From a bacterium (lineage in GTDB: Bacteria; Patescibacteriota; CPR2; UBA1875; JAJYID01), in contig JAJYLR010000001.1 in assembly GCA_021787535.1 (NCBI GenBank), positions 447,687-492,320 on the forward strand: a stretch of 44,634 nucleotides of DNA, given 5' to 3'. A program made the position numbers and the translations under genes. Positions 41,281 to 42,748 of the stretch are shown piece by piece. Under the pieces are notes generated by a model that saw nothing but the letters and a program-made list of their open reading frames with translations, was not told the origin of the DNA and made no database searches. Position 1 is the stretch's first letter, and each line of letters starts with the position of its first letter.

Positions 41281-41575
41281 TCTATTTTCGACTATCGCGG
41301 TTCGAAAAAAGAGGATGAACCGAATGAATACTTTGAAAAGACCGCTTGTCTTTAGTCCGACTGAAAGGAGTTTGGTTTTTCAAAGATGAATGAGTTGAAA
41401 TCCGACATTTCGAGAAGCCGCCTAGCCGGCAGTTTTTGCCAAACTTTTTGCTGTCAAAAAGTTTGATAAGAAATGACTTTTTCTAAAAAAGTAGATTTCC
41501 AATTCTACAAAAACGGAGAGGTAATCAAAGATAACGAAGGAAAGATTCTGGACAAGCCAGAATGACAATTCTAAC
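41281..41575. other. Gene-poor stretch after murC
   Basis: No convincing gene. A perfect 11-base stem CAAACTTTTTG / CAAAAAGTTTG (41440-41465, loop CTGT) may end murC transcription. A REP-like fragment lies at 41540-41567 (AGATTCTGGACAAGCCAGAA). Two short ORFs of about 20-26 codons have no good start sites. Confidence 0.5.
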
Positions 41576-41686
41576 TTATCCCCACTTTATCCACAATAAA
41601 GATATTGACATAGCTTTTCTTTACCTATAATATTTTTACAACGTTCCTTTTTGAGAGGGACAGGAACGACAGAGGTCTGTGGATAA
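41576..41686. other. Cluster of DnaA-box-like sequences
   Basis: TTATCCCCA (41576-41584, one mismatch), TTATCCACA (41587-41595, perfect) and TGTGGATAA (41678-41686, perfect, opposite strand). Confidence 0.35.
41605..41633 (+). promoter_or_regulatory. Promoter of the structured RNA
   Basis: TTGACA (41605-41610), then TAATAT after 17 bases (41628-41633), or TATAAT after 15. Transcription would begin near 41640. Confidence 0.75.
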
Positions 41687-41777
41687 ATAATTATACATGT
41701 GTATCCCTTCAGACAGCTGAAAAAATTAACTCTCAATCACCCCCAAACAAAAAACGCTCGCAAGAGTGTTTTTTGTA
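41640..41777 (+). ncRNA. Structured RNA candidate with pseudoknot, upstream of an HD gene
   Basis: Promoter and terminator bracket about 135 non-coding bases. Stem 1: CGTTCCT (41642-41648) with AGGAACG (41662-41668). Its loop contains TTGAGAG (41651-41657), exactly complementary to CTCTCAA at 41730-41736, giving a 7-base pseudoknot. Stem 2: GTCTG (41675-41679) with CAGAC (41710-41714), extended by GGATA / TATCC. An 11-base terminator hairpin (41749-41774) with a T run ends it. No known class was recognised. It may be a small RNA, or a riboswitch-like leader whose terminator controls the HD gene. Confidence 0.55.
41749..41777 (+). terminator. Intrinsic terminator of the structured RNA
   Basis: AAAAAACGCTC / GAGTGTTTTTT, loop GCAA, T-rich tail. 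It lies 20 bases before the HD gene. Confidence 0.85.
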
Positions 41778-41782
41778 TTTTA

Positions 41783-41791
41783 TGATATACT
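41783..41791 (+). promoter_or_regulatory. Extended -10 of the HD gene (leaderless)
   Basis: TGATATACT, with ATG 41798 six bases further. The -35 is poor. If used, the HD gene has its own message. Confidence 0.45.
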
Positions 41792-41797
41792 TTTTTC

Positions 41798-42748
41798 ATG
41801 ATAATCAAAGATGAAATCTATGGAGAAGTTGAAGTAAGAGATTCTATCCTTTTAGAACTTATGGATTCAGATTCACTTAAAAGACTAAAGGGAATTTCCC
41901 AATACGGTGTGCCTAACCAATACTACTTTAAGAAAAATTTTAATCGATTCGATCATAGTATAGGAGTAATGCTGCTTTTAAAGATATTGGGCGCTCCTTT
42001 GGAAGAACAAGTCGCAGGACTTTTGCATGATGTAAGTGTCACATCATTCTCACATATTGCAGACTGGGTTCTATCTGAAGGACATTCAGGCAAGGAAGAT
42101 TATCACGATTCAATTCACGACACTTTTGTCAGAAAAACAGATATACCAGATATTCTAAAGAAGCATAAATTTTCAACTGAAAGAATACTTGACGATAAAA
42201 ATTTTCCCCTGCTTGAAAATAATTTGCCTGATATTTGCGCCGATAGAGTTGATTACGCTTTAAGAGAAATTTTTTATACTTATAATCCGGAACTAATCAA
42301 AGAATTTTTGCCTACACTGACTGTCGACAAAAATACAATTGTTTTTTGCAAACTCTCGGCTGCTAGTTTATTTGCTAATAAGTTCCTGGATCTCCAAATC
42401 ACCCACTGGGGGTCGAAAGAAGCTGTGAAGAGATATTTTTTCTTTTCAAATGCACTAAAGAGAGGAATTAAATTAAATATTTTATCGCCTGACGATTTCT
42501 GGAAAAGTGAAAGAGAAATCTTGCATATCATAGAAGCTAGCAAAGACCAACAGATTAAAGAGATCTTAAAAGCTTTATCAAATGATAATATGAAAAAAAT
42601 AGGAGAAAGGGTTTATAAAAAGTTCAGATACATCGATCCTTTCGTTGATACGAGCCAAGGTTTAAAAAGAGTAAGCTCATTGAATAAAAAATTCGCAAGA
42701 AGGCTGGAATATGAAAGGTTATCTAATCTTGAAGGAGTATTAGTATAA
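41798..42748 (+). CDS. HD-domain phosphohydrolase (dNTPase/SAMHD1-like)
   Basis: 316 residues. Early RLKGISQYGVPNQYYF and RFDHSIGVMLL (H53), then LLHDVSVTSFSHIAD (H77-D78) and DICADRVDYALRE, the layout of HD proteins related to dGTP triphosphohydrolases and SAMHD1. Substrate could be a dNTP or another nucleotide. No ribosome-binding site; a -10 box lies 6 bases upstream, directly after the terminator of the structured RNA. The next gene starts at its stop codon. Confidence 0.88.
   Translation: MIIKDEIYGEVEVRDSILLELMDSDSLKRLKGISQYGVPNQYYFKKNFNRFDHSIGVMLLLKILGAPLEEQVAGLLHDVSVTSFSHIADWVLSEGHSGKEDYHDSIHDTFVRKTDIPDILKKHKFSTERILDDKNFPLLENNLPDICADRVDYALREIFYTYNPELIKEFLPTLTVDKNTIVFCKLSAASLFANKFLDLQITHWGSKEAVKRYFFFSNALKRGIKLNILSPDDFWKSEREILHIIEASKDQQIKEILKALSNDNMKKIGERVYKKFRYIDPFVDTSQGLKRVSSLNKKFARRLEYERLSNLEGVLV

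Follow-up and report, generated by a model that had tools for sequence, protein, structure and literature searches.

The csRNAs of streptococci and the RsaE-like RNAs are small RNAs that act in trans and carry C-rich single-stranded seeds. To our knowledge, the small RNAs of reduced-genome bacteria such as the present lineage are almost uncharted, and we know of no study of replication control in this lineage. For E. coli, three non-coding clusters of DnaA boxes have been described, namely datA, DARS1 and DARS2 (PMC4585315). The function of datA is modulated by transcription through datA itself (PMC10950094), and the core of DARS1 with its three DnaA boxes spans roughly 50 bp according to the figures given in PMC5742627.

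Here, we focus on the interval between murC and an HD phosphohydrolase gene (41605-41798) in the window, that is, the whole stretch of 44,634 nucleotides that was analysed, which belongs to a 945-kb genome (G000) that looks Patescibacteria-like in its size and gene content. On sequence grounds, this interval holds a real and new, lineage-specific structured RNA gene that is under strong purifying selection and has no entry in Rfam. No such RNA is described in the literature searched, which was covered in part and mostly as titles and abstracts. We lean towards the view that the locus encodes a small regulatory RNA of about 140 nt that stands alone, is specific to this lineage, is under DnaA-linked control and acts via an invariant C-rich single-stranded tail. 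Judged by sequence, the unit has the attributes of a stand-alone small RNA: a promoter and a terminator of its own, independence from its neighbors, and conservation.

The sigma-70-type promoter (TTGACA-17-TAATAT, 41605..41633, forward strand) is composed of the hexamers TTGACA at 41605-41610 and TAATAT at 41628-41633. TTGACA is invariant, the -10 element reads TAATAT, TATTAT or TACAAT in relatives, and the spacing of 17 bp is kept among them. The RNA start is predicted at about 41640, so that the structured RNA gene including its terminator would occupy 41640..41779 on the forward strand, as do all elements of the RNA given below. Stem 1 (41642..41668) pairs 41642-41647 with 41663-41668 and bears UUGAGAGGG in its loop; five of its six pairs do not vary, and the sixth is lost in two species. 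Within this loop, UUGAGAG (41651..41657) is the exact 7-nt complement of CTCTCAA at 41730-41736, its proposed pseudoknot partner. Stem 2 (41670..41719) pairs 41670-41679 with 41710-41719 and, in its upper part, 41681-41685 with 41702-41706. It is followed by the single-stranded 21-nt tail at 41727..41747, which includes the second half of the putative pseudoknot, and by an intrinsic terminator with a 13-bp stem (41747..41776). Promoter, both stems, the 7-base complement (TTGAGAG/CTCTCAA) and the terminator were thus all found where a preliminary description of this DNA had placed them. The putative RNA would start at its own promoter after murC and end at its own terminator. It might act in trans, with the invariant tail CUCUCAAUCACCCCC pairing with other RNAs or binding a protein. 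The loop of stem 1 may cap part of the tail, either as a pseudoknot or in a nearly iso-energetic alternative fold, and the capped tail would stay closed until a partner comes.

The same RNA adjoins murC in six of the seven genomes of the family (G000-G006); in the seventh, G002, contigs end on both sides of the interval, leaving an assembly gap. Between genera, the RNA core is 81-92% identical as compared to 21-39% at the 4-fold synonymous sites of murC, which is about saturation, and not a single base of the tail TAACTCTCAATCACCCCCAAA differs among the six species. Since RNA core and tail are conserved while the 4-fold sites of murC are saturated, strong purifying selection acts on a non-protein element, and we regard the conservation in six species as decisive support for the RNA being real. 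These data also bear on a short coding transcript, either a leader or a small peptide, which we find hardly credible. While short open frames do cross the tail, a 2-nt insertion in G003 right before the tail shifts any frame that enters it. Moreover, every base of the tail is unchanged, even those that would fall on third codon positions, and no conserved start codon with a ribosome site is present. Outside the family, a covariance-model search that took in 380 genomes of the phylum (about 370 other genomes) revealed no additional copy, and the rest of the order and class yielded none at a credible score. Likewise, a synteny search in other families found no homolog of the RNA beside murC or CAP, and viral contigs contained no exact 19-nt match to the tail.

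Stem 1, stem 2 and the 13-bp terminator make up the MFE fold. The folding z of the whole unit is -4.65 and derives mostly from the terminator; without the terminator, z is modest, at -2.2 in the window and -0.9 to -1.9 in relatives. Among the six sequences, 100% of the terminator cells are paired, with two compensated pairs and zero broken cells. The base of stem 2 likewise shows two compensated pairs (U-A/C-G and C-G/A-U), and a third pair is re-formed as A-U in G003 when pairs are read from the fold instead of from the alignment columns. The helix between loop and tail shows zero compensatory changes in the same six sequences. Its 7 bp are kept in five of six species, and two mismatches leave 4 contiguous bp in G003. 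A loop/tail complement of at least 7 bp turns up in about 4% of letter shuffles, and the pseudoknot alone is hence weak evidence. Furthermore, in five of the six species the stem-1 fold and the loop/tail fold lie within about 2 kcal/mol of each other, suggesting that the two may be alternatives rather than parts of a pseudoknot. A 7-bp pseudoknot is thus possible and unproven, because the helix is uncompensated, is broken in G003 and competes with a nearly equal fold. Of the pseudoknot put forward in the preliminary description, the exact complement stands, whereas covariation does not back it and it shrinks to 4 bp in one species. The same description had named an absence of compensatory changes beforehand as evidence against its proposal; such changes are present in the base of stem 2 and in the terminator and absent from the pseudoknot.

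The locus had initially been read as a riboswitch with a terminator switch, or as a small RNA. The latter part is borne out by an independent, conserved unit. The former is not, because the neighbor varies and has a separate promoter. The HD-domain gene (41798-42748, ATG at 41798) represents an insertion that is confined to genus g1 and separates the RNA from the CAP gene. HD follows the RNA in this genus alone and CAP follows it in g2 and g3; in G003, G004, G005 and G006, the RNA lies between murC and the CAP-domain gene with no HD gene in between. The association of leader and gene that would be expected of a riboswitch or attenuator is therefore not kept in relatives. Directly 3' of the terminator, an extended -10 promoter of the downstream gene (TGATATACT, 41783..41791, forward strand; TGnTATAAT/ACT in relatives) occupies one fixed place in G000, G001, G004 and G006. 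G005 has a similar TGCTATATAAT nearby in a different register, and G003 has no extended -10 after the terminator and carries other inserted sequence there. This fixed element indicates that the RNA is transcribed separately from the downstream gene, at least as far as g1 and g2 are concerned. The extended -10 that serves CAP in g2 is apparently also the one used by the HD gene in g1. As only six nt separate the extended -10 from the HD start codon in the window, the sequence suggests that the HD mRNA is leaderless.

Control of the HD phosphohydrolase gene by a riboswitch or terminator attenuator in its leader is consequently very unlikely. The terminator does lie 22 nt ahead of the HD start codon, and the RNA is structured and has alternative folds. 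These folds lie in the 5' part, and neither of them touches the terminator stem. However, the same RNA precedes CAP in the other genera, and in g1 and g2 the extended -10 past the terminator would let the downstream gene be transcribed by itself, apparently without a leader. Inspection by eye also found no convincing antiterminator against the 13-bp terminator stem. The riboswitch of the HD gene was therefore rejected on the grounds of the differing neighbor and the separate promoter, and this reading is refuted on the present evidence. Rather than a switch of the adjoining gene, the RNA is probably a free regulatory molecule.

In line with the initial impression that no known class fits, no family in Rfam 15 matches the RNA at its gathering score, and only chance-level matches appear at E<=10, the best of which is csRNA, scoring 19 bits where its gathering score is 57. 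One may also think of an RNA with a housekeeping role or bound to a protein, such as a 6S-like or SRP-like RNA or that of another ribonucleoprotein, which has diverged past recognition; we consider this unlikely. The single copy per genome and the very strong conservation would suit such an RNA. So would two gaps in the RNA inventory: a search of the seven family genomes detected no SRP RNA, and about 0.93 of G000 together with the window yielded nothing for 6S RNA at its gathering score. In contrast, the RNA has neither the GGAAGG-AGCAG motif of SRP RNA nor a 6S-like long hairpin with a central bubble, and the free C-rich tail suits a pairing RNA better. The lack of an Ffh/FtsY P-loop motif in 882 kb of G000 also speaks against it, because an SRP RNA may then not be needed. 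The model of the bacterial small SRP RNA (RF00169) gave no match at E<=0.1 in the seven genomes, the RNA locus included; with motif and covariance model both absent, identity with SRP RNA was rejected. The Ffh/FtsY-type P-loop motif is missing from 882 kb of G000 (all but about 7%) and likewise from 708 kb of G003, and the SRP pathway may be missing in the lineage. A separate observation concerns the 23S rRNA of G000 (L116:4547-8629, G000:C2), whose match covers 4083 bases compared with 2925 in the model; about 1.2 kb are inserted, probably as an intron.

With regard to possible partners of the tail, the start regions of 325 orthologous pairs were scanned in comparison with shuffled tails. The best conserved duplexes fell within the range of the shuffled tails and nothing was significant among these pairs. 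The gene between lexA and recA came first in G000 (-20.5 kcal/mol) and was rejected, since this candidate target failed in the closest relative, G001, and lies within the null range. Part of the tail, AAUCACCCCC (window 41730-41745), resembles the 3' end of the 16S rRNA of the same genome, GAUCACCUCC. The tail might possibly serve as a decoy for a binder of the 16S tail. Anti-Shine-Dalgarno mimicry by this segment is retained as a lead only, since an invariant C-for-U change in the tail spoils pairing with the common GGAGG. The tail also matches a dispersed repeat of the family, AAAAAATTAACTCGCAA..CAAACAAAA, with weak full-length model scores (E 0.01-0.4), and this kinship was dismissed as a chance similarity multiplied by the repeat copies. 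A dispersed repeat (AAAAAATTAACTCGCAAGCTCAAACAAAATTC plus flanks) occurs in many copies in G002, G003, G004 and G006, for example L022-L031. A stretch of the window between murC and the RNA (41290-41480) looks like a degenerate copy of this repeat on the other strand.

The unexpected and most testable part of the locus is its cluster of DnaA boxes. Sites were scored against TTATCCACA, the E. coli DnaA-box consensus, and a cluster was defined as at least three sites with at most one mismatch each per 250 bp. The DnaA-box-like site A (TTATCCCCA, one mismatch, 41576..41584, forward strand) lies 11 bp before box B, an exact site at 41587..41595 on the forward strand upstream of the promoter. Box C, also exact, is found on the reverse strand at 41678..41686 inside the RNA gene, in the left arm of stem 2. 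Boxes B and C are invariant in the six species, and site A is found 11 bp upstream of B in all six, with one mismatch in five of them and two in G004. Nine exact sites occur in the entire G000 genome, of which 882 kb contain a single cluster, the RNA locus. The 708 kb of G003 contain two clusters, the RNA locus and C4:19869-20049 just upstream of dnaA. When the motif was permuted, a cluster with at least two exact sites arose in 1 of 60 permutations in G000 and 0 of 60 in G003, and never in both. A match to DnaA (PF00308) is missing in G000 and present in G003, probably owing to an assembly gap in G000.

In both G000 and G003, a distance of 22-26 kb separates the RNA locus from the terminus as given by the switch in GC skew. 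Hence it is not an origin of replication, a candidate that was discarded on this basis; dnaA of G003 lies near the skew minimum. Judging from the 9-mer only, we infer that DnaA binds these boxes. It would occupy A and B, which are spaced by one helical turn (about -64 to -45), as well as the box at about +39, and RNA output would track the DnaA level or the replication cycle. The boxes also raise the rather unlikely alternative that the locus is chiefly a DNA element, an off-origin cluster that titrates or converts DnaA in the manner of datA or DARS, with transcription across box C clearing DnaA or being blocked by it and the RNA product mattering little. In its favor, the locus and the site upstream of dnaA are the sole box clusters, a result beyond the permuted-motif controls, and the locus lies at the above distance from the skew switch in both genomes. 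The E. coli elements are a precedent, being non-coding box clusters (PMC4585315) with transcription as a modulator of datA (PMC10950094). Yet the most invariant part of the locus is the 21-nt tail, which contains no DnaA box and lies beyond the cluster, and the terminator and the base of stem 2 co-vary as RNA helices. We retain the stand-alone RNA gene as our reading of the locus. More speculatively, and with a low probability, a dedicated structured RNA in this candidate-phylum bacterium may be driven by, and run across, a DnaA-box cluster near the terminus; the availability of DnaA would then be turned into an RNA signal, or transcription of the RNA would reset DnaA bound at the cluster.

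Another conserved DnaA box is found at a promoter of the same family. An exact box, TGTGGATAA, lies between the -35 and -10 elements of the lexA promoter in all seven family genomes. It is situated upstream of a cluster in the order lexA, a 130-aa gene of unassigned function, recA and recX (L154:7269-9945, G000:C2), in which LexA, RecA and RecX were confirmed by Pfam. The promoter of this lexA-recA operon thus resembles the RNA locus in its conserved exact box, and it differs in having a single box between -35 and -10 where the RNA locus has three around the start.

In comparison with the described small RNAs, the predicted RNA resembles the csRNAs and the RsaE-like RNAs in its own promoter, 5' hairpins, exposed C-rich stretch, intrinsic terminator and intergenic location. 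It has no sequence or covariance-model relation to them. With datA, DARS1 and DARS2, the locus shares a non-coding, off-origin cluster of at least three DnaA boxes in mixed orientation (PMC5742627 and PMC4585315), and datA is also affected by transcription (PMC10950094). The mixture of orientations in DARS, in which box I is opposite to II and III, agrees with the RNA locus, where two boxes stand against one. In contrast, the arrangement is wider than the DARS core, as A and B are 11 bp apart and C follows 82 bp past B, so that the three boxes straddle the promoter and span 111 bp. A further difference from datA and DARS is the structured and conserved transcript predicted at the RNA locus. 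With its cluster of DnaA boxes, the promoter of the RNA links replication control to an RNA regulator in a concrete way that can be put to the test. If the proposed coupling of cluster and RNA holds true, the locus would represent a combined DNA and RNA counterpart of datA and DARS outside the proteobacteria.
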